Assembly (NCBI GenBank): GCA_022072085.1
Contig: JAJVII010000062.1
Coordinates: 9,362-41,494 of the forward strand
From: Phycisphaerae bacterium
GTDB taxonomy: Bacteria > Planctomycetota > Phycisphaerae > JAJVII01
Length of the DNA: 32,133 bases
Direction of reading: 5' to 3'
A program made the position numbers and the translations under genes. How positions within the stretch are numbered: the first letter of the stretch is position 1; the number at the start of each line of letters is the position of its first letter. Positions 800 to 32,036 of this stretch are shown here, piece after piece. The notes beneath the pieces were generated by a model. The model saw only the letters and a list, made by a program, of their open reading frames with translations, did not search any database and had not been told where the DNA came from.

Positions 800-1093
800 C
801 TAGTAGCGGCGTCCGCCGCCGTAGCCGCCGCCACTGGTGCGGCTCTCGCGAGGCTTGGCCTCGTTGACCTTCATGGCCCGGCCGCCGCTGTCCTGGCCGT
901 CCAGGGCCGCGATGGCCGCCTTAGCTTCCTCGTCGCTCCCCATCTCCACGAAGCCGAAGCCCTTGCTGCGGCCGGTGTCGCGGTCCATGATGACCTGGGC
1001 GCTCTGCACGGTCCCGTGCGTGGCGAACAGCGACTGGAGGTCGGCATCGGTCACGTCGTAACCGAGATTGCCTACGTAAACCTTCTTGCCCAT
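800..1093 (-). CDS. RRM-domain glycine-rich RNA-binding protein
   Basis: This 97-residue protein is a single RNA recognition motif with a short Gly/Arg/Tyr tail (SGGGYGGGRRY). RNP2 is seen as VYVGNL (residues 5-10) and RNP1 as KGFGFVEM (about 44-51), both with the aromatic residues that stack on RNA bases. This is the architecture of the bacterial/cyanobacterial Rbp family, whose members bind single-stranded RNA and are often cold-induced. The ATG at 1093 is preceded by GAAAGGAAA. The gene is monocistronic, with a strong terminator at 755-786. A candidate promoter near 1265-1295 would give a 5' leader of about 165 nt, as in many cold-shock genes, but this is inference. Family assignment is firm; RNA targets are unknown. 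Confidence 0.93.
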   Translation of the reverse strand: MGKKVYVGNLGYDVTDADLQSLFATHGTVQSAQVIMDRDTGRSKGFGFVEMGSDEEAKAAIAALDGQDSGGRAMKVNEAKPRESRTSGGGYGGGRRY

Positions 1094-1264
1094 CTGATTT
1101 CCTTTCGAAGTTGGGCATGCAGACCCGCGTTTTGCTTTCAGGGTCGCCGATGAAAGTGGCCGACATTCCGGCCGAGAAGTTAGGAGCGTTGGCGAGAAAA
1201 GCGGCGGTCGGAGGGGAATAACATCTGATCGCGAATCTTCTCGTCGGACGAACCCGACGGCAGT

Positions 1265-1295
1265 AGTATACCACGCCGAGGGCGGCGGCCCTCAA
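1265..1295 (-). promoter_or_regulatory. candidate promoter with internal palindrome, upstream of the RRM gene
   Basis: On the minus strand TATACT (1270-1265) resembles a -10 box and TTGAGG (1295-1290) a -35 box, but the 19-base spacer is longer than ideal. A palindrome, GAGGGC-CGCC-GCCCTC (1278-1293), fills much of the spacer and could be an operator. It lies about 170 bases before the RRM start codon. This is a weak call. Confidence 0.3.
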
Positions 1296-1296
1296 A

Positions 1297-1910
1297 CAAA
1301 GTGAGAACTATATCCACGCCAGATCGGTCCAACGATCGGCCGATGCCGACGAGGGCCGTTTGAGACGGCCTCGTTAATGACGCGGCTGGACTGGCCGAGG
1401 GCCTGCGGGTGTGGGCCCTCGGAGCGCCCCCCCCCGGATAAGGCCCAAACTGGCGACCGGCGGTAACCTTCCCCTGCCCAGACAGTTTCCGGAACCGCAT
1501 CCCAAGAACCGTGGATCGCCCCAGGCCCCCGCCGGCCGCCTCTAACAACAGGCTGTGCCGGTGATTACTCCGCCCGCCTGCCCGCCTTACCGTAAGTAAA
1601 CTCGACCAGCCGTACTTGTTTACTGGCGTCGAATCCCGCCCTCCATATATAGGGTCGCGGGCGGGGGAAAATGGGACTTACGGAAGCCGCGTAAACCGGG
1701 CCGATTCCGGCCGGCGGCCCAGGTGTCGGCCCGGCCGGCGGTTGGCCCGGCGAAAAATTCTCGGAATTTTGGGGGGATTTTCGCAGGGGGGGCAACACGA
1801 CTCGTCACGGCGCAGGCCGTGCCGTAGCCGGGAGGACCACGAAGGGGGGAGGCGGAGTGGGGGAGGTCGCTTCTCTTGCGTGGATGGCCTGACGGGCGCG
1901 CGGGGAGGCG
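1297..1910. other. long intergenic region, no gene seen
   Basis: No frame here has a convincing start, ribosome binding site or protein-like composition. The stretch contains a GC-rich hairpin at 1395-1422 (CCGAGGGC with GCCCTCGG, 12-base loop, no T-run). There is also an A/T inverted repeat at 1754-1770 (AAAATTC-TCG-GAATTTT) and repeated GGCCGGCGG-type runs around 1705-1750. These may be structural or remnant sequence. Confidence 0.5.
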
Positions 1911-1975
1911 GAGAGGGGGACCGGTCCCTTTTTCGCGAAGACGCGAAAAGCGGACCAGTCCCCTTAAGACGGGAA
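1911..1975. repeat. REP-like hairpin repeat, copy A
   Basis: This 65-bp unit is nearly identical to 2069-2132. It folds on itself as a long hairpin. The inner stem is built on TTTCGCG-AAGA-CGCGAAA. The outer arms GGGGACCGGTCC and GGACCAGTCCCC pair with one mismatch. It differs from copy B by one C/T change and one extra T. Such extragenic palindromes are typical of REP-type elements; no transposase for it is visible in this window. Confidence 0.7.
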
Positions 1976-2002
1976 AGACGGACCAAGCCCCGCACGGCCT
2001 CG

Positions 2003-2063
2003 ACATTTCACGCTTTGCATTTTGCATTTCGCACTCGACACTTGGCACTTGGCACTCGGCACT
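2003..2063. repeat. degenerate short tandem repeats between hairpin copies
   Basis: The spacer between the two hairpin repeats is built from degenerate short units: TTTGCAT/TTTGCAT/TTCGCAC, followed by CACTTGG/CACTTGG/CACTCGG. No coding potential is evident. Together with the flanking hairpins it forms a composite repeat island of about 220 bp. Confidence 0.5.
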
Positions 2064-2068
2064 GCGAA

Positions 2069-2132
2069 GAGAGGGGGACCGGTCCCCTTTTCGCGAAGAC
2101 GCGAAAAGCGGACCAGTCCCCTAAGACGGGAA
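2069..2132. repeat. REP-like hairpin repeat, copy B
   Basis: This is the second copy of the 65-bp hairpin unit, in the same orientation as copy A and 93 bases after it. Here the inner stem is a perfect 9 bp (CTTTTCGCG-AAGA-CGCGAAAAG). It ends about 50 bases before the start of the lipoprotein gene at 2184, so it may lie within or next to that gene's promoter; a TATAAT sequence follows at 2140-2145 but lacks a good -35 box. Confidence 0.7.
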
Positions 2133-2183
2133 GGGAGGCTATAATCGCGCGGCGGGGGGCGGGGCAACCGGGGAGGCGAACGC

Positions 2184-3053
2184 GTGAGCATTCTGCACAG
2201 GTGGGCCAGGGCGGCGGCTGCGGCGGCGGTGTTGGCGTTGGCGGCCGCGGGCGGCGGATGCGCCGCCGGGCCGGCCATCTCGCCGTCGGCGGTGAGGGTC
2301 GTCGGCGACGTGCAGGACGTACTGGCGGGGCGGTGCACGCCGGACAAGTTTCACCTGCTCGATCGGCTGAACGTGACCGCGGCGCTGGGCGCCGGTTCGC
2401 CGGGCAACCTGGCCGACACGGGCGAGATGCTGATGATCTACGGCCGCGTGTTTACGCGGAGCACGGATGCGGCGACGGGCTATGCGACGCGGGAGATCGA
2501 GGACGACATCCGCACGCCGTTCGCGCTGGCCGTGCCGTGGGAGGCGCGGGGGACGGGTCGGCCGATCGCGATCGACGGGGAGACCACGCTGGCGGACCTG
2601 ATGACGCGGCGGGTGCGGCAGGGGGCGGTGATCGCGCTGGTGAAGGCCCGGCGGCTGGAGACGTCGGCGATCAAGCGGGCGCCGATCTACGGCGAGGCGA
2701 TCCAGGGGCCGGGGATGCGGGAGAAGTATTTTCATCCGACGCGGACGCTGGAGGATCGCTGGGTGTTGCTGATGGGCGTGGCGGTGGACCCGGCCGAGGC
2801 GCGTGGCGACGCGGCGGCGGAGGCCGTGCTCGGCCGGGGGTATTACGTGAACCTGGCGGACAAGGCCCAGGACGCCGGGGCGGGGCGGGTTCAGTATCAC
2901 GTGCACGGGTGGGTGCTCAAGGCCCGTCCGGCGGGGCGGGGCCTGGCGGAAATGGCGAGGTCGGCGAAAGTGGAGGAGGTGGCCCACCTGCTCGGGCAGA
3001 GCGTGTTCACGCAGGTCGAGGGGGAGCAGTTTACGCTGACGGGCACGCGGTAG
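2184..3053 (+). CDS. hypothetical lipoprotein
   Basis: This encodes 289 residues from a GTG at 2184, chosen because GGGGAGGCG lies just upstream. The N-terminus is a lipoprotein signal: basic MSILHRWAR, an Ala/Leu-rich core, then AAGGGC with the lipidated Cys near residue 26. The mature part is a mixed alpha/beta soluble domain; I recognise no family. It has stretches such as RWVLLMGVAVDP and YYVNLADKAQDAG but no obvious catalytic motif. It is followed after about 40 bases by the promoter of the next lipoprotein gene, so it is probably transcribed alone. Location outside the cytoplasmic membrane is inferred from the signal; function is unknown. Confidence 0.82.
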   Translation: MSILHRWARAAAAAAVLALAAAGGGCAAGPAISPSAVRVVGDVQDVLAGRCTPDKFHLLDRLNVTAALGAGSPGNLADTGEMLMIYGRVFTRSTDAATGYATREIEDDIRTPFALAVPWEARGTGRPIAIDGETTLADLMTRRVRQGAVIALVKARRLETSAIKRAPIYGEAIQGPGMREKYFHPTRTLEDRWVLLMGVAVDPAEARGDAAAEAVLGRGYYVNLADKAQDAGAGRVQYHVHGWVLKARPAGRGLAEMARSAKVEEVAHLLGQSVFTQVEGEQFTLTGTR

Positions 3054-3093
3054 GCCGACGGGTTGGCGGCCGGACGTGGGCGGGATAAAACGA

Positions 3094-3123
3094 TTGACAG
3101 ATCAAGGGTTTACGGGCCATAAT
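3094..3123 (+). promoter_or_regulatory. sigma-70-type promoter for the coiled-coil lipoprotein
   Basis: TTGACA (3094-3099) and CATAAT (3118-3123) are separated by 18 bases. The expected transcript start near 3130 gives a leader of about 70 nt before the ATG at 3200 and supports that start over upstream alternatives. Confidence 0.65.
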
Positions 3124-3199
3124 CGCGGTTCCAGGACAAGGCGGCGGTGCGGCCGTTGTGTCGATGCGCCCGGCGATCCAACATGAGGTGCAGGTCTAC

Positions 3200-4795
3200 A
3201 TGTCCAGACTGAATCGAGTGCTGATTCTGGCGGCGGCCTTGGGGCTGGGGTGGTGGCTGACGGGCTGCATCGAGAACAAGGACGACGCGGCCGCGGACAA
3301 GGCCCGCGAGGCGCAAGCGAAAGCGGACAGCCTGACGGCGGCGGCGATTCGCGCGCAGACTTCGTCCAGTCTGGAGCCCGAGAGCCGCGACGCAAAAGTG
3401 GCGGCGACCTGGGCAGAGGCCAGGGCGGAGTTGAACAAGGCGAAGGGGCAGGCCGCCAACTATTGGCCGCTGGATGAACAGATCGCCTGCATCGCGGCGG
3501 AAGAGGCGGAATACTGGGCGGGACGCAGCAACGAGGAACTGGGCAAAGCGCAGGCGAGGCTCGATCGCGTGAGCCTCCAGCAGGTCGTGCTGCACGGGCT
3601 TCAGATGCAGATCGACGCATGGAAGAAGCAGAAGGAAACCTACAAGGCGGCACAGGACGCTATCGATGCGCAGATCGGGGGGTATCAGGACGACATTAGG
3701 AAGTGGCAGGATGAAATCGGTCGGCTGAACCAGGCGAAGTCGGCCGCGGAGGCTGACGCGGCGGCCAAGCGCAGGGAGGCCGATCCCCTGCTCAAGCAGG
3801 GGGAAGAACTCCGGCAGAAGGGCAGCCTGGCGCCGGACGGTCGGCCCGACCTGGCGATGGGCTGGCAGGTGAAGAACAAGGGGGCGAAGCTCGAGAACGA
3901 AGCGTTCCTGGCTGACGTGAAGGTGCAGAATCAGGACAACTTCATCAAGATCACGCAGGCCAAGATCGACGTGGCCAAGGCGCATGTTGAGACGCTCAAG
4001 CAGGAGCGGGGCAAGTACGATGCGGATAAGAAGGCTGTCGATGGCGAGGTGACCCGACTGACGGGGGCAGCGGTTGCGGCTGCGGGTGGTGGCGCGGAGA
4101 ACGGCCCGCTGCCGGCGGCGAGCGTGAGGGTGGTCAACGACGGCATCGCCGGGGACTTGGACAGCGTCGCGGCGGCGCTGGCTGTGGCGGTCGAGACGCT
4201 GAGCCGGTCGGCCAAGGCCTACGCTGAGTCGACCGCGGAATACGAGAAGGCTGCGAACCTCCTGCGTCAGCAGAACAGCGCCGTCCCCTCGGACGCGACA
4301 CCGGAGGCCAAAGAGGCGGCGGTGGACGATCAGGCGGCGATCGCGTTGAACGTTCACATGGCCAGCGCGGGGATCAGCCAGGGCGCGCTGGGGACCGATC
4401 TGGTCAGCGCGGTGGTTGCGGCGGCGAGCAAGGCAACGCAAGTCATGCAGGATCTCGGGCGACTGCCCAGCAAGTCTCCCCAGGTGATATCGCTGGCCAA
4501 GGCGCTTCAGGCGGCCGTGCCGGCCGGCACGTCGAAGGTGACTCTCGGCGACGAGGTGAGCAAGGCCGACCTGGACAGCCTGATCGCCGAATGCCAGGCG
4601 GCTCTCAAGACGGCGGCCGACGATGGCTACGCCAAGGCCCGCAGGGCCCTGGAGGCGGCCAGCCGCAATCCGAAGGCCAGGCAGACCCAGCCGGGCTCCA
4701 AGCAGAATTGGATCGTCTTCATCGACCTGCTGCGAACACGGCTGCCGGCGGAAGCGGGCACCGGGACGCCCATACCGGCCGGCAGCGGGACGTAG
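3200..4795 (+). CDS. coiled-coil-rich hypothetical lipoprotein
   Basis: This encodes 531 residues from the ATG at 3200 (GAGGTG upstream; the longer frame has no better start). The leader MSRLNRVLILAAALGLGWWL ends in LTGC, a good lipobox with Cys at residue 23. The rest is almost entirely alpha-helical, rich in Ala, Lys, Glu, Asp and Gln, with long heptad-like runs, for example the stretches holding QAKADSLTAAAIRAQ and KTVNQ-like Lys/Glu patterns. It resembles a periplasmic coiled-coil scaffold rather than an enzyme. No named domain is recognised. It has its own promoter (3094-3123) and terminator (4834-4866), so it is probably monocistronic. Function unknown. Confidence 0.85.
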   Translation: MSRLNRVLILAAALGLGWWLTGCIENKDDAAADKAREAQAKADSLTAAAIRAQTSSSLEPESRDAKVAATWAEARAELNKAKGQAANYWPLDEQIACIAAEEAEYWAGRSNEELGKAQARLDRVSLQQVVLHGLQMQIDAWKKQKETYKAAQDAIDAQIGGYQDDIRKWQDEIGRLNQAKSAAEADAAAKRREADPLLKQGEELRQKGSLAPDGRPDLAMGWQVKNKGAKLENEAFLADVKVQNQDNFIKITQAKIDVAKAHVETLKQERGKYDADKKAVDGEVTRLTGAAVAAAGGGAENGPLPAASVRVVNDGIAGDLDSVAAALAVAVETLSRSAKAYAESTAEYEKAANLLRQQNSAVPSDATPEAKEAAVDDQAAIALNVHMASAGISQGALGTDLVSAVVAAASKATQVMQDLGRLPSKSPQVISLAKALQAAVPAGTSKVTLGDEVSKADLDSLIAECQAALKTAADDGYAKARRALEAASRNPKARQTQPGSKQNWIVFIDLLRTRLPAEAGTGTPIPAGSGT

Positions 4796-4833
4796 TCAGC
4801 CCGCACACGACAACCGGATCAAGAACGCGAATC

Positions 4834-4866
4834 GCCCCCGGCTCTCCAAGAGACCGGGGGCTTTGT
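4834..4866 (+). terminator. intrinsic terminator after the coiled-coil lipoprotein
   Basis: The outer stem GCCCCCGG (4834-4841) pairs with CCGGGGGC (4854-4861), with a second small stem CTCT/AGAG inside, followed by CTTTGTTC. It begins 38 bases after the stop codon of the gene ending at 4795. Confidence 0.75.
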
Positions 4867-5059
4867 TCATGGCCTTGCGACCTCAATGAACGGTGCCTAG
4901 AGTCGGCCGCCTCGCGGTCGGACTTCATGATCATCGCAACGCATGGTTTTTGCGATATTTGTGGGCAACCATAGGCGTCACTCGGAATTCCATGCCCATC
5001 GCCGACTTGTGCCTGGACACTTGGTGTTGAGGAATACCCTTGACTTCCATGCCTTTGGG

Positions 5060-5088
5060 TTGACTCAAACACAATCGCGACCGATAAT
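5060..5088 (+). promoter_or_regulatory. sigma-70-type promoter for the sigma-factor gene
   Basis: TTGACT (5060-5065) and GATAAT (5083-5088) have an ideal 17-base spacer. The predicted transcript start, near 5095, lies 47 bases before the ATG at 5142. The AT-rich sequence around it stands out from the GC-rich surroundings. Confidence 0.72.
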
Positions 5089-5141
5089 TAAAGTGGAGAC
5101 CGGGCGACAGGTTGAGGCTGACAGTAGCGCTGGGAGGTCGG

Positions 5142-6842
5142 ATGGCAAGGTATACAAATGCCTTGATCCGCGAACTGGCGGGCCAGTTGGTCCGCAGTCC
5201 CAAGCACCTCAAGTGGAAGATTACGCTCGCCGCGGAATCCTTCTACCAGATCGTTGAAGTCGGTCGCGATTACCCCTACGAATTGGTTCTGCATCGTATC
5301 ACCGGCTATCGCGAGCGGAATTCGCGAGTCAGCCGGCCGCTTATTCCCGGCAAGCATCTCCGAGTCGATCTGGCCACGCTCATCGACGACGTCTCCGAAG
5401 CCGGCCCTCTTGCGGCCGACCAGGCCCCGGCCGAACTGCTGACGGTCGAAGACCTGTCGCAGCGCTTTGGCGTCTCCACCAAGACTGTCAACCGGTGGCG
5501 AAGCGACGGATTGATCGGCCGAAAGGTTCGGTTCCCCGACGGCAAGACGCGCGTGGCGTTTCTGCCGTCGAGCGTGGACTACTTTGCCAACATCCGCGGC
5601 GATCGCGTCCGTCGCGGCTGCCAGTTCAGCCGGCTCTCCGACGCCGAGCGCGAGGACGTGCTCCAGTCGGCCCGCCGACTGGCCGCGGACTCCGCGTCGC
5701 GGCATGAGGTCATCGAGCGGATCGCCCGACGCATGGGCCGCTCGATCGAGACCATTCGCTACGTCATCGTGCAATGGGACCAGGCGCATCCGACGCGGGC
5801 CATCTTCCCCGACCGCCGCCGCACCTTCACGCCTCAGGAATTCCAGGACATTTTCGACGCCTGGCGGAAGGGAAGCCTGCCGACCGAACTGGCTGAACGG
5901 TTCAACTGCTCGCCCAGCACGATCTATCGCGCCATCTGCCAGGTTCGGTTCGAGGAACTTCGCAACCGGCGTCCGAAATGGATTCACGCCGCGGAATTCG
6001 ACCTGGCCGACGCGGCGCTGAACATCCTTCAGACCCCGATCGCCGACCCGCCCGCGCAGGCCACGCCGGCGCCGGCGGGTGCGGACGACTTGTTGCCTTA
6101 CCTCCGCGACCTGTGGGGCGGCGAACTGCTGTCGGCCGACCAGGAGCGGGGCCTGTTCCGGCGATACAACTACCTCAAGTGCCTGACCGGTCGGGCCATC
6201 GACGAGTTGGAAGCCAGCGGCCTGACCTCCGGGAGGCGGCTGGACGCCATCGAGCAGTGGCTGGACTGGGCCGGCCAGGTCCGCGATCGGCTGATCCGGG
6301 CGAACCTGAGGCTGGTCGTGTCGATCGCCAAGAAGCACCACGGCCCGCTGACGCAACTGACCGACCTGATCAGCGACGGCAACATGGTCCTGATGCGGGC
6401 GATCGAGAAGTTCGATTACATGCGCGGGCAGAAGTTTTCGACCTACTGCTCGTGGGCGATCATGAAGCACTTCGCCCGGGCGATCCCGGAGGACAATTAC
6501 GCCCGCCGCTGGGTCGGGGCCATCGAGCCCGATTCCTGGCCGACCGTCTCGGTCGACGCCCGCGTCGCCGACTTCCGCAGGCCGGGCCTTGAGACCATCC
6601 GGGCGGACCTGGAGGAAGGCCTGGCCATCCTGCCCGAGCGCGAGCGAACCGTGCTGGTCGAGCGATACGGCCTGGCCGAGGGTGGACGCGGCAAGACGCT
6701 CACGCAGATTGGCGCGGCTTTGGGCGTCACCAAGGAACGCGTGCGTCAGATCGAGTCGGCGGCCCTGTCGCGGCTGCGCAAGCTGCTGGGGGGCGAGTTG
6801 GTCGAGGAACTTGAACTTGAAATCGAGCACGCCGCCGACTGA
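5142..6842 (+). CDS. sigma-70 family RNA polymerase sigma factor with multi-HTH N-terminal extension
   Basis: This encodes 566 residues from the ATG at 5142 (GGGAGG just upstream; a TTG at 5112 lacks this). The C-terminal half is a group 1-3 type sigma factor. It has a region 1.2-like segment (about 326-345, ELLSADQERGLFRRYNYLK), region 2 (about 383-445, with ANLRLVVSIAKKHH, LISDGNMVLMRAIEKFDY and KFSTYCSWAI for core binding, -10 recognition and melting), and region 4 (about 495-550, with GAALGVTKERVRQIESAALSR, the -35-binding HTH). The linker between them is short and has no clear region 3. The N-terminal 320 residues carry a MerR/excisionase-like HTH (about 99-130, LSQRFGVSTKTVNRWRSDGL) and a second HTH (about 248-266, TELAERFNCSPSTIYRAI). 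This suggests a sigma factor with its own additional DNA contacts. It is monocistronic, with its own promoter and terminator. Family is certain; regulon unknown. Confidence 0.93.
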   Translation: MARYTNALIRELAGQLVRSPKHLKWKITLAAESFYQIVEVGRDYPYELVLHRITGYRERNSRVSRPLIPGKHLRVDLATLIDDVSEAGPLAADQAPAELLTVEDLSQRFGVSTKTVNRWRSDGLIGRKVRFPDGKTRVAFLPSSVDYFANIRGDRVRRGCQFSRLSDAEREDVLQSARRLAADSASRHEVIERIARRMGRSIETIRYVIVQWDQAHPTRAIFPDRRRTFTPQEFQDIFDAWRKGSLPTELAERFNCSPSTIYRAICQVRFEELRNRRPKWIHAAEFDLADAALNILQTPIADPPAQATPAPAGADDLLPYLRDLWGGELLSADQERGLFRRYNYLKCLTGRAIDELEASGLTSGRRLDAIEQWLDWAGQVRDRLIRANLRLVVSIAKKHHGPLTQLTDLISDGNMVLMRAIEKFDYMRGQKFSTYCSWAIMKHFARAIPEDNYARRWVGAIEPDSWPTVSVDARVADFRRPGLETIRADLEEGLAILPERERTVLVERYGLAEGGRGKTLTQIGAALGVTKERVRQIESAALSRLRKLLGGELVEELELEIEHAAD

Positions 6843-20764: not shown

Positions 20765-20792
20765 TTGCTTTGTCGGCTGGAGGGGGTATATT
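20765..20792 (+). promoter_or_regulatory. candidate promoter for the tandem riboswitch transcript
   Basis: TTGCTT (20765-20770), a 16-base spacer and TATATT (20787-20792). The predicted start at about 20799 is immediately before the P1 stem of the first cobalamin aptamer (20802), which is the geometry expected for a riboswitch leader. Confidence 0.6.
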
Positions 20793-20801
20793 TCCGGTGT
20801 T

Positions 20802-20984
20802 GCAGGTTCCCGCACGGGCGGGACGAAAAAGGGAAGGCGGTGAAAAGCCGCCGCGGACGCGCCGCTGTGAACGGCCCCCCGATCCGAAATGCCGGACGAG
20901 GGAATGTCCGAGCCACTGCTCCGGCAATCGCCGGGACGGGAAGGCCGGACCGAACGACGCCGTAAGCCAGAAGACCTGCCTGCT
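20802..20984 (+). ncRNA. cobalamin riboswitch, first of two in tandem
   Basis: All main parts of the B12 aptamer are visible. The P1 strands are GCAGGT (20802-20807) and ACCTGC (20974-20979). The conserved core contains AGGGAAGGCGGTGAAAAGCC, then GCGCCGCTGTGA and the later GGGAAGGCC. The B12 box reads AAGCCAGAAGACCTGCC (20963-20979). The spacing fits the family. It senses adenosylcobalamin or a related corrinoid and changes downstream RNA folding. The intrinsic terminator at 21100-21127 is a plausible expression platform. Class assignment is firm; which corrinoid binds is unknown. Confidence 0.93.
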
Positions 20985-21010
20985 ACGATCGGGCGAGACG
21001 CCCGAAGGAA

Positions 21011-21061
21011 GCAACGCTCTCGCGTGGCTCTCCCGGCAGAACGGGAGAGCAGGATCGTTGC
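21011..21061 (+). promoter_or_regulatory. nested hairpin between riboswitch 1 and its terminator
   Basis: GCTCTCCCG (21027-21035) pairs perfectly with CGGGAGAGC (21042-21050). An outer GCAACG (21011-21016) pairs with CGTTGC (21056-21061). Downstream, GCAGG (21060-21064) could pair with CCTGC (21096-21100), which touches the 5' arm of the terminator. This is a possible antiterminator arrangement, inferred only. Confidence 0.5.
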
Positions 21062-21099
21062 AGGCCGACAGATCGCCGTTGTCTGGCTTGCCGAACCTG

Positions 21100-21127
21100 C
21101 CCGCGCGTGAGCGCGGGTTTTGTGTTT
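21100..21127 (+). terminator. intrinsic terminator between the two cobalamin riboswitches
   Basis: CCCGCGC-GTGA-GCGCGGG is a perfect 7-bp stem with a tetraloop, followed by TTTTGTGTTT. It is the strongest intrinsic terminator in the window. It lies about 115 bases after the first aptamer and about 60 before the second, so it can be the off-state of riboswitch 1. Confidence 0.9.
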
Positions 21128-21189
21128 GGTGGCCGGATGAGAGAGCCCACCCGCAAGCCCCGCTTCATGTGACATCCAGTTTCCCCGTT

Positions 21190-21357
21190 CTCAAGGCAAC
21201 GAACGGGAAGGCGGTGAGAATCCGCCGCGGTCGCGCCACTGTGATCGGCCCCTCCGTATCGAGGAGGAGGTCGGCCCAACGGGCCACTGTTCCGATTCGT
21301 CGGGATGGGAAGGCCGGGTCGGCTTGAGCCGTAAGCCAGGAGACCGGTCGCCTTGAG
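21190..21357 (+). ncRNA. cobalamin riboswitch, second of two in tandem
   Basis: This is a second full B12 aptamer. P1 is formed by CTCAAGG (21190-21196) and CCTTGAG (21351-21357). The core has GGGAAGGCGGTGAGAATCCGCC, then GCGCCACTGTGA, a peripheral hairpin (CCTCCGTATCGAGGAGG) and GGGAAGGCC. The B12 box is TAAGCCAGGAGACCGG. It is about 140 bases upstream of the PEP-CTERM gene. The two aptamers are clearly related but not near-identical, so they are not a recent duplication. Downstream hairpins at 21361-21387 and 21435-21460 are candidate expression platforms. Confidence 0.94.
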
Positions 21358-21360
21358 GCA

Positions 21361-21387
21361 CAACCCTCTTCGCCCGAAAGGAGGTTG
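21361..21387 (+). promoter_or_regulatory. hairpin covering a Shine-Dalgarno sequence after riboswitch 2
   Basis: CAACC (21361-21365) pairs with GGTTG (21383-21387) and a few inner pairs (TCTT with AAGG/A) form around one mismatch. The 3' arm holds the strong AGGAGG sequence. Since P1 of riboswitch 2 ends at 21357, ligand binding could shift this pairing. Confidence 0.45.
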
Positions 21388-21391
21388 CGCG

Positions 21392-21409
21392 ATGGTGCCC
21401 GCCGACTGA
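21392..21409 (+). other. possible 5-codon leader ORF
   Basis: ATG-GTG-CCC-GCC-GAC-TGA follows an optimal AGGAGG site by about seven bases, yet encodes only MVPAD. It might be a leader peptide coupling translation to the riboswitch, or the ribosome binding site may be coincidental. The true gene starts 88 bases later with a weaker site. Confidence 0.25.
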
Positions 21410-21434
21410 CAACCCGCTGTCATATCCGACCCGC

Positions 21435-21460
21435 GGGGCGGCCGATGCCGGCCGCCTGCC
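21435..21460 (+). promoter_or_regulatory. strong GC hairpin just before the PEP-CTERM gene
   Basis: GGCGGCCG (21437-21444) pairs with CGGCCGCC (21449-21456) around ATGC, extended by two further pairs. It is followed by CACAACCTTTGATCGCCTTTT, which is T-rich but not a clean T-run. It may be the regulated terminator or block of riboswitch 2. Confidence 0.5.
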
Positions 21461-21496
21461 CCACAACCTTTGATCGCCTTTTCGCGAGGATTTGTC

Positions 21497-22369
21497 ATGC
21501 GTCCGTTCACTCCTATCGCATTGCTTTGCATCTGCGCCGCGCTGGCGGCTGCGCCTGTGACGGCCCAGGCGGCCGTCTTCGCGTCGGAAGTGGTCAGCTA
21601 TGATCCCGGCGTCAACGAACTGCCGACGATCTTCGGGACTTCGCTTCACTACGACCAGCCGCAGGTCGCCGTCGGTTCGCCGGACGGCCTGACCGGCGAG
21701 ACCGACGGGTTTCCCAGCGTGCTCAGCCCGTTCAGCGGCGCCTACGAGCGCGACGAGATCGTCGCCGTCGGCGAGCAGGGCCACCTGACGCTCAAGTTCG
21801 CCGCGCCCGTATACGTCGGCGCGGGGTACGAGATCGGCGTCATCGCCAACGTCAGTCTCTATGACCAGAGCTACCCGAACGGCCAGGCTTACGACCCGGC
21901 GCTGACGACCTCGACGCATTCGGCCGTCGTCGAGGTGAGCGCGGACAACGCGCACTGGGTCAGCCTTGGGAGCATCACGTTCGACATCCCGGCCAACTTC
22001 TACACCGACAGCGGCCCGTTCGATTCCGTCCGCGGCACGCAGGAGGCCGATTTCGGCAAGGCTTTCGTTCCGGCCGGCGGGCTGTCGGCGTTCGACGGCC
22101 TGGACAACAGCGGGATACTGACGCTGCTGGACGGGTCAGGCGGCGGCACCTGGATCGACCTGGGCGGGACGGGTCTGAGCCAGATTCAGTACATCCGCTT
22201 CTCGGTCCCGGACGACGGCCAGGAGTTCATCGACAGCTATGCGGTCATCGACGCGGTGGCGGTGAACAACCTGGCTTTGCTGCCGCAGCCGGCGCCCGAG
22301 CCGGCCAGCGTGGCGCTGCTCGTGCTGGGCGGGGCCGCCTGCTCGGTCTGGCGTCGCCGACGTTCATAG
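21497..22369 (+). CDS. PEP-CTERM sorting-signal exported protein, B12-riboswitch controlled
   Basis: This encodes 290 residues from the ATG at 21497 (GAGGA seven bases upstream). Residues 1-25 are a signal peptide ([20 protein letters not shown], cleavage near AQA). The last 24 residues are a textbook PEP-CTERM signal: PEP at 267-269, a hydrophobic stretch ([16 protein letters not shown]) and RRRR. This marks it for exosortase-dependent processing and surface placement. The mature domain (about 26-260) is beta-rich, with motifs such as [34 protein letters not shown] and [11 protein letters not shown]. This resembles a jelly-roll/F5-8-type-C-like binding fold. Two cobalamin riboswitches precede it and the prepilin-like gene follows by 13 bases. 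A role in corrinoid binding or uptake is inferred only from the riboswitches. Confidence 0.92.
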
Positions 22370-22382
22370 GAAGGAATCGGCT

Positions 22383-23210
22383 GTGAGGCAACATGACGCC
22401 TCGGCAATCCGATCAAGTGCCCGCGGGCGCAGGCGTCGCCGGCCGCTGCCGGCGGCGCCTGGCGCGTGGGCCTTCACGCTGATCGAACTGATGGTCATCG
22501 TCGCGATCCTGTCGCTGCTGGTCAGCGTGCTGCTGCCGGCGCTGGGACGGGCGCGCGAGGAGGCCCGGCGGATCAAGTGTCTGAGCAACCTAAGGCAGAT
22601 GGCGATCATCGCGCACGAATACGTCGAGCGGAACAACGGCAGTTTCCCACCCGCCTACTGGGAAATCAGCACCGACGCATCGACGAAGGTCCGCTATGAG
22701 TGGGACTACAAGACGACGATCGCCAAGGGAACGGGTAAGGTGGTTTCCGTCGAGCCGGGACTGCTGTGGGAGGGGCTGGACGTCAGCAGCATGCAGCAAT
22801 GCCCGTCGTTCGCGGGCGTGTCCAACTCGCTGGCGGATCCCTTTACGGGTTACAACTACAACATCAGCTTCATCGGCCACGGGCAGAACGAGACGGTCAA
22901 ATCGCCGGCCAGGCTTGAAGACGTGATGTCGCCAGACCATTGCGCCCTGTTCGGCGACGGCGAATATCGCTCCGGGGCGAACAAGTTCATGCGTTCGCCG
23001 ATGCCGTGGTCCGGGGATAAGTTCCAGAACCGCTCGGCAGGTACGCAGGGGTTCCGCCACAACGGGATGACGAACGTGGTCTTCGTGGACGGGCACGCGG
23101 CGTCGCTGAGCAAGCGGTGCACGCACACCTGGAGCACCGCCGAGGAGGCCCAGATCGCCCCGGCCTGCGGATTCCTCGACGAAGACAACAGCCTCTACGA
23201 CCTGAAGTGA
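22383..23210 (+). CDS. prepilin-type N-terminal methylation protein with H-X9-DG motif
   Basis: This encodes 275 residues from a GTG at 22383 (GGAAGGA upstream), 13 bases after the PEP-CTERM gene. A long basic leader (RGRRRRR) precedes the class III signal [17 protein letters not shown] (from residue 30). Cleavage would fall between Ala30 and Phe31, with Glu35 as the conserved Glu5; Ala instead of Gly at -1 occurs in planctomycete pseudopilins. The globular part contains [11 protein letters not shown] and ends with the H-X9-DG motif (His226, Asp236-Gly237). Such proteins are abundant in Planctomycetota and are thought to be pseudopilins of type II secretion/type IV pilus-like systems. Being second in a B12-controlled operon is unusual. 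It is convergent with the VWA gene, 32 bases away. Confidence 0.92.
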
Positions 23211-31175: not shown

Positions 31176-32036
31176 ATGCCTACACTCGACTGGATCGGCA
31201 AGGACGCTGTCGTCGCTCACCACCGGAAGGTTCCCTACCACCTGCTGCGCTGCGACCGCAACGTATCGGCTGGCGACCCACACGCGGGCAACCTGTTGGT
31301 CCAGGGCGATAACCTCCTCGCGCTCAAGGCCCTGTTGCCCTACTACGCCGGCAAGGTCAAGTGCATCTACATCGACCCACCTTACAACACGGGCAAAGAG
31401 GGATGGGTTTTTAACGACAATGTCAACAGCCCCGACATTCGCCGTTGGTTCAGGCAGGTTGTCGGTCCGGAGGCCGACGATCTTTGCCGGCACGACAAGT
31501 GGCTCTGCATGATGTACCCCCGATTGTCTCTGCTCAAGCAGTTTCTGCGGCCTGACGGCGTTCTTTTCATCAGCATCGGGATCGACGAGATTGGCCATCT
31601 TCGCGCAATGTGCGATCAACTTTTTGGGCGACGCAACCTCCTCGAGACCTTCATCTGGCAGATCGAAGGCAACGTAGAGAATCAGGAGGCCATCACTGCT
31701 ACCCATGAGTACATTCTTGCGTACGAGCGAGAGGCTGGCCGAAGCCAGATTGCCGTGGTTCTAGACCCTAACGTGGAGGACGGCTCGAAGCTCCTCCGCG
31801 ACTTTGCAGAGAATTCCGTCGTCAAGAATGGGCCTGGCAACCCGGCATCCGTTATCGAACTGCCTGTAGGTTTCCCATGCGAGATTGCCGCCCTAAGCCT
31901 TCCGAGACATGGCTTCGCACAGGACTTCATCGCCCAGGTTGAAGCCGATGAACGCTATATCAAACGCGAAATGAGGACGTCGTACAAAGAAAACTATCCG
32001 ATTAGACTAAGAGCGCCTAACAGAATGAGTTTGTAA
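31176..32036 (+). CDS. truncated site-specific DNA methyltransferase (type III Mod-like, beta class)
   Basis: This frame encodes 286 residues from the ATG at 31176. It begins like type III/orphan Mod enzymes: HLLRCDRN, NLLVQGDNLLALKALLPYYAGKV, then the catalytic motif IV DPPYNTG (about residues 68-74), and PRLSLLKQFLRPDGVLFISIGIDEIGHLRAMCDQLFG. These transfer a methyl group from S-adenosylmethionine to adenine N6 or cytosine N4. In this class the SAM-binding FxGxG motif lies near the C-terminus, and full proteins are around 550-650 residues. Here the homology stops near YPIR (about 32000) and the frame ends at 32036 inside sequence that belongs to an insertion element. The gene is therefore disrupted and probably inactive. 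Confidence 0.85.
   Translation: MPTLDWIGKDAVVAHHRKVPYHLLRCDRNVSAGDPHAGNLLVQGDNLLALKALLPYYAGKVKCIYIDPPYNTGKEGWVFNDNVNSPDIRRWFRQVVGPEADDLCRHDKWLCMMYPRLSLLKQFLRPDGVLFISIGIDEIGHLRAMCDQLFGRRNLLETFIWQIEGNVENQEAITATHEYILAYEREAGRSQIAVVLDPNVEDGSKLLRDFAENSVVKNGPGNPASVIELPVGFPCEIAALSLPRHGFAQDFIAQVEADERYIKREMRTSYKENYPIRLRAPNRMSL

Follow-up and report, generated by a model that had tools for sequence, protein, structure and literature searches.

The locus described here raises the question of what vitamin B12 controls in a planctomycete operon that has two cobalamin riboswitches in its leader and encodes a PEP-CTERM exported protein (gene A) and a prepilin-type protein (gene B). The window, i.e. the whole stretch of 32,133 nt that was analysed, lies within contig G000:C51 of a Phycisphaerae genome (the source genome, G000; 5.49 Mb, 96.95% complete), and 248 genomes of the same class served as the comparison set. 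The explanation that accounts best for the data, and is considered highly probable, is that of a corrinoid-acquisition operon held off by B12, in which gene A encodes a predicted binder of BtuH type. The planctomycete would most likely make this predicted B12-catching module when vitamin B12 is short.

Tandem cobalamin riboswitches and leader

As claimed in the preliminary description, two complete B12 aptamers precede the genes (Table 1). The RF00174 covariance model accepts both at full length (model positions 1-189), and their scores are so far above the family gathering score of 31.5 bits that chance is excluded. A search of the whole source genome (5.49 Mb) gave no further RF00174 match. 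The coordinates given earlier for aptamer 2 implied a P1 stem of its own; this is scored as mismatched by the RF00174 model, yet read from the sequence CUCAAGGC (21190-21197) pairs with GCCUUGAG (21350-21357). The two-gene operon described beforehand is also found, with TIGR02595/PF07589 matches in gene A and an SBP_bac_10/DUF1559 match in gene B, the latter starting 13 nt downstream of gene A.

Table 1. Features of the riboswitch-controlled operon (positions are those of the window).
Feature	Position	Strand	Evidence
Cobalamin riboswitch aptamer 1	20787-20997	+	RF00174, 91.4 bits, E 1.2e-21
Hairpin resembling a terminator, with U-rich tail (candidate expression platform, aptamer 1)	21099-21118	+	Hairpin scan
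Cobalamin riboswitch aptamer 2	21164-21366	+	RF00174, 73.9 bits, E 1.2e-16
Hairpin CAACCCTCTTCGCCCGAAAGGAGGTTG, which would mask AGGAGG; possible platform of aptamer 2	21361-21387	+	Minimum-energy fold
Gene A, exported PEP-CTERM protein, BtuH-like domain	21497-22369	+	Profile, AlphaFold2 model, structure matches
Gene B, DUF1559 (SBP_bac_10) prepilin-type protein	22383-23210	+	SBP_bac_10 profile

The terminator-like hairpin between the aptamers has an 8-pair stem (7 of the pairs G-C) and the tail TTTGTGTTTG, and the fold of 20985-21135 has a z-score of -3.7. The region holds 2 terminator-like sites against 2.1 expected in shuffles; as shuffled regions give about two such sites, the hairpin is not significant alone and is only suggestive as the platform of aptamer 1. 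The hairpin behind aptamer 2 is a weak candidate for a platform, the aptamer 2 leader folding no better than its shuffles (z -0.04). The stretch separating aptamer 2 from gene A also holds a five-codon reading frame, ATGGTGCCCGCCGACTGA (21392-21409), behind an AGGAGG; it could be a leader peptide or due to chance.

Cobalamin riboswitches usually switch genes off when B12 is present. Plentiful intracellular cobalamin would here bind both leader aptamers and lower expression of the operon, aptamer 1 probably by transcription termination and aptamer 2 by way of an uncertain platform.

Aptamers 1 and 2 group together in a quick tree calculated without support values. In the multiple alignment they are about 60% identical, and the 85% obtained from a pairwise gapped alignment takes in aligned columns alone and so does not establish a recent duplication. 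Among the matches listed in the 248-genome RF00174 search, same-direction tandem aptamers occur in the source genome only. Divergent riboswitch pairs are seen at L092 (G002:C44; 723-906, minus strand, and 1001-1208, plus strand) and in G098:C54 (31208-31385, minus strand, and 31451-31632, plus strand). Tandem riboswitches with a cobalamin riboswitch as a member have been described (PMC9481103, PMC12452182).

Conserved operon context in related genomes

Gene A matches were found in 96 of the 248 class genomes, the weakest reaching the PEP-CTERM tail alone. The arrangement of riboswitch and gene A recurs among relatives: at 28 of the 29 closest non-self homologues, RF00174 lies upstream on the same strand. 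The exception (L015) belongs to a genome without an RF00174 match in the class-wide search. Since RF00174, present in 228 of the 248 genomes, usually occurs once in each, the chance of such a placement at a distance of 1.5 kb or less is put at roughly 4 in 10,000 for each locus.

A profile search of 39 riboswitch loci in which BLAST had found no gene A commonly gave the order riboswitch, surface-type gene, A-family gene, B-type gene. The first gene is sometimes a DUF4465 member (L083, E 5.5e-52; L106, E 2.3e-56). This family is present in 33 of the 248 genomes and is encoded just downstream of the riboswitch, on the same strand, in 13 of the 14 genomes with both positions among the matches listed. 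The DUF4465 members that have been tested bind B12, including one from the planctomycete Mucisphaera (PMC13398666). In relative G009 the operon reads riboswitch, DUF4465, A, B, Peripla_BP_2, ABC ATPase, FecCD; in G234 a PEP-CTERM-like gene of 190 residues occupies the place of DUF4465 in the same order, and FecCD is encoded within a few kilobases in several other relatives. The arrangement is also found in one Verrucomicrobiia MAG and one Pirellulaceae MAG. The conserved placement of the riboswitch, together with the operons that relatives share with DUF4465 and BtuFDC-type genes, lends support from comparative sequence data to the earlier proposal of a B12-regulated surface module.

At 14 of the first 40 loci there is a member of a PQQ/BamB-type propeller family with dockerin, in most cases directly behind A, and partner set A8 matches propellers of this type. 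Partner set A7 was considered as a group of BtuG-like propellers and rejected; it gave no significant PDB match, and the propeller reading is accordingly not borne out for the A7 partners or for the fusions at L085 and L091. In these two loci (L085, G238, 1185-3476; L091, G180, 2821-6054) a single reading frame encodes some other domain followed by an A-family domain, a layout that resembles BtuG1.

Other riboswitch loci of the class carry different genes. L110 (G178:C40, 618-2774) and L109 (G217) carry a gene for an anaerobic ribonucleotide reductase (NRDD; identified by Pfam on L110), a canonical kind of cobalamin riboswitch target. At L112 (G020:C39, 3909-5824) the cobalamin riboswitch is followed by a gene for a TonB-dependent receptor that has both plug and barrel domains, an arrangement like that of BtuB. 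The family relative G001, in which no gene A was detectable by BLAST, has riboswitches at L035 (G001:C343) and L036 (G001:C83), one before a radical SAM/SPASM gene and the other beside genes resembling those of cobalamin synthesis.

The pseudopilin gene

Gene B has a GTG start and exceeds the SBP_bac_10/DUF1559 cut-off (31.3 bits vs 23.3), while its N-methylation motif, at 15.6 bits, falls under the cut-off of 21.2. Close to the N terminus the protein has a hydrophobic helix, and its C-terminal part bears a conserved FRH...DGHA motif; its group of DUF1559-type proteins has invariant and near-invariant positions. The structural model is of moderate quality (pLDDT 69.9), and its N-terminal helix is long.

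Whether gene B takes part in B12 uptake or is a passenger in the operon is a separate matter, as a passenger role would be compatible with a BtuH-type function of gene A. Such a role would suit the abundance of DUF1559 prepilin-type genes in planctomycetes (68 paralogs in Planctopirus limnophila; PMC10632474), the 20 gene B matches in the source genome (itself included), of which most are to the N-terminal part only, and the outcome of the structure search, in which the gene B model had no informative fold match. The positional data argue otherwise. A B-type gene lies within three genes of A, on the same strand, in 38 of 55 A-family loci, and several of the remaining loci are truncated at a contig end or bear a propeller gene; B-type genes also occur at other riboswitch loci where no A was detected, and the closest full-length gene B paralog of the source genome precedes a Peripla_BP_2/FecCD pair. 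A passenger role is quite possible, if on balance unlikely. One of the N-terminal matches in the source genome (G000:C33:74100-75305) lies about 240 bases after a match to the MetH B12 domain.

Planctomycetes take macromolecules into the periplasm by a mechanism that is unclear, and gold-labelled dextran has been located on their pili-like fibres (PMC5394234). By analogy with these observations, a part for the pseudopilin in uptake is conceivable.

Gene A and the BtuH domain

Gene A encodes 290 aa from an ATG start after GAGG. A BtuH-like domain (residues about 26-259) is followed by a PEP-CTERM tail (265-290), the C-terminal signal being detected by TIGR02595 (24.9 bits, cut-off 16) and PF07589 (21.1 bits, cut-off 20.7). 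No Pfam domain was found beyond this tail, and the result with NCBIfam was in effect the same. The AlphaFold2 model, built with 17 relatives, has a mean pLDDT of 86.5. When it was compared with the PDB by Foldseek, the sole match at E <= 0.001 was BtuG1 of the BtuB1-BtuG1 B12 transporter complex (8blw_B, E 5.0e-6). VIA-align placed residues 318-593 of BtuH2 first (7biz_B, Z 11.3 over 154 residues) and residues 392-660 of BtuG1 second (8blw_B, Z 11.2 over 153 residues). BtuH2 binds B12 through its C-terminal domain, for which contact residues have been given (PMC8941943), and the extension of BtuG1 is a fused BtuH domain (PMC10404256).

Profile searches of the PDB led to the same protein. The gene A family profile with anchors matched BtuG1 391-657 at E 4.9e-14, and a profile of 22 family members with the anchors trimmed matched BtuG1 393-657 at E 9.4e-13, its only PDB match up to E 10. 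An eight-member profile reached BtuG1 at E 0.025 only; a profile of the close relatives of gene A alone had no PDB match, nor did two divergent members searched singly give a real one. Within a small protein set, the close subgroup of gene A reaches intermediates at E 1.3e-37 to 8.5e-6, and in the other direction the BtuG1-like group finds members of this subgroup, though not gene A itself. A single-protein scan of the genome contigs with gene A found no relative, while a closer alignment used as query did find some. The homology of gene A to BtuH is therefore drawn from its own structure model together with a transitive sequence link. On these grounds gene A looks like a carrier of a BtuH-like domain and is a predicted corrinoid binder. 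Its model matches B12-binding domains of BtuH2 and BtuG1 and its family profile matches BtuG1, so that the corrinoid capture suggested in the preliminary description gains support, whereas the accompanying statement that no gene for B12 uptake is visible is in substance mistaken: gene A looks like one, though Pfam and NCBIfam leave it unnamed.

Surface proteins that bind polysaccharides are plentiful in planctomycetes, which would favour gene A as a CBM32/F5-F8-type carbohydrate-binding surface protein, with B12 signalling the metabolic state only. CBM32 and related galactose-binding folds make up most Foldseek rows for the gene A model and reach Z values up to 10.3, about 1 below the BtuH-like matches, a margin at which the fold alone would not settle the ligand. 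With the anchors trimmed, however, the family profile matches a single sequence in the PDB, the BtuH domain of BtuG1, and no CBM, and carbohydrate binding would not explain why A-family genes of relatives occur together with DUF4465 and BtuFDC-type genes; this reading is improbable. Because the Peripla_BP_2 and FecCD families are common to iron and B12 importers, the operon might also import another FecCD-type ligand (iron chelate, haem) or cobalt under B12 control. Cobalt transporters are indeed known targets of cobalamin riboswitches (PMC3766115), but the A family is homologous to BtuH, which binds B12, and shares operons with DUF4465, which also binds it; both facts point to corrinoids, and another ligand is very improbable.

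The NCBIfam family NF033170 (LIC_13355 family lipoprotein, Leptospira) matches 13 of the 22 A-family members (best E 5.1e-12), suggesting at the level of profiles that these lipoproteins are distantly related to BtuH-like domains.

B12 genes of the source genome and a possible route of uptake

In the source genome the operon itself is without BtuFCD, DUF4465 or propeller genes. Two Peripla_BP_2/FecCD loci (BtuFCD-type importers) are encoded elsewhere, one with an ABC ATPase (C37) and one at a contig end with a B-type pseudopilin, the paralog mentioned above, ahead of it (C2). MetH is encoded, and a test for biosynthesis with a single family, the CobB/CobQ-type GATase_3, gave weak matches only. 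Neither the TonB plug (PF07715) nor the receptor barrel (PF00593) has a match in this 96.95% complete genome, and PF00593 is absent at E <= 0.001 from 142 of the 248 class genomes.

With gene A as the corrinoid binder, the following sequence of events may be proposed. When cobalamin is scarce, gene A would be made and exported, and its BtuH-type domain would bind corrinoids at the cell surface, where the protein would probably be anchored by exosortase via the PEP-CTERM tail. The DUF1559-type pseudopilin would be co-produced. Captured corrinoid would pass to the periplasm without a detected TonB-dependent receptor, and from there to the cytoplasm via a BtuFCD-type ABC importer encoded elsewhere in the genome, to serve B12-dependent MetH. 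For the outer-membrane step a TonB-independent route, by which the BtuH-type surface binder and a pseudopilin fibre bring corrinoid to the periplasm for BtuFCD, is offered as a tentative and rather doubtful proposal. If true, DUF1559 pseudopilins would gain a function. The gene inventory in any case raises the question of how, with no TonB-dependent receptor detectable, B12 gets into a Gram-negative cell; given the observations on macromolecule uptake and pili-like fibres cited above, a B12-regulated pseudopilin offers a concrete handle.

Comparison with known systems

Riboswitch-controlled surface capture of corrinoids is already known from Bacteroides. In a literature search mostly outside subscription journals, no paper was found that ties cobalamin riboswitches or BtuH to planctomycete PEP-CTERM proteins. 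The operon is best read as a planctomycete version of such capture that differs in its anchoring, in its pseudopilin partner and in a source genome with no detectable TonB-dependent receptor.

Gene A resembles BtuH2 and the BtuH domain of BtuG1 of Bacteroides thetaiotaomicron in predicted fold, family profile, riboswitch control and surface-type export. In contrast to these, the A family ends in a PEP-CTERM or dockerin-type C terminus instead of bearing a lipoprotein anchor, and gene A has one domain only, lacks PKD repeats and has a pseudopilin as its partner in a genome where no TonB-dependent receptor was found. The DUF4465 proteins (BtuJ1/BtuJ2, D5EK51, and Pan of Mucisphaera calidilacus) share riboswitch operons with A-family genes in relatives but form a separate Pfam family (PF14717); membership of gene A was considered and rejected, there being no profile match in gene A or in the source genome. 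The BtuBG-BtuFCD loci of Bacteroides likewise combine riboswitch control with surface binding proteins. In the source genome the ABC importers lie at other loci and no BtuB-type receptor was detected, unlike in those loci, while in some relatives the operon itself includes genes for an ABC importer and a periplasmic binding protein. A widespread family unnamed in Pfam would thereby gain a likely function, and the range of BtuH-type corrinoid capture would widen beyond Bacteroides to take in planctomycetes and, as an outlier, one Verrucomicrobiia MAG. As judged from these sequence relationships, the best reading of the operon, as a predicted function, is that of a variant, in planctomycetes, of the BtuG/BtuH/BtuJ surface systems known from Bacteroides.
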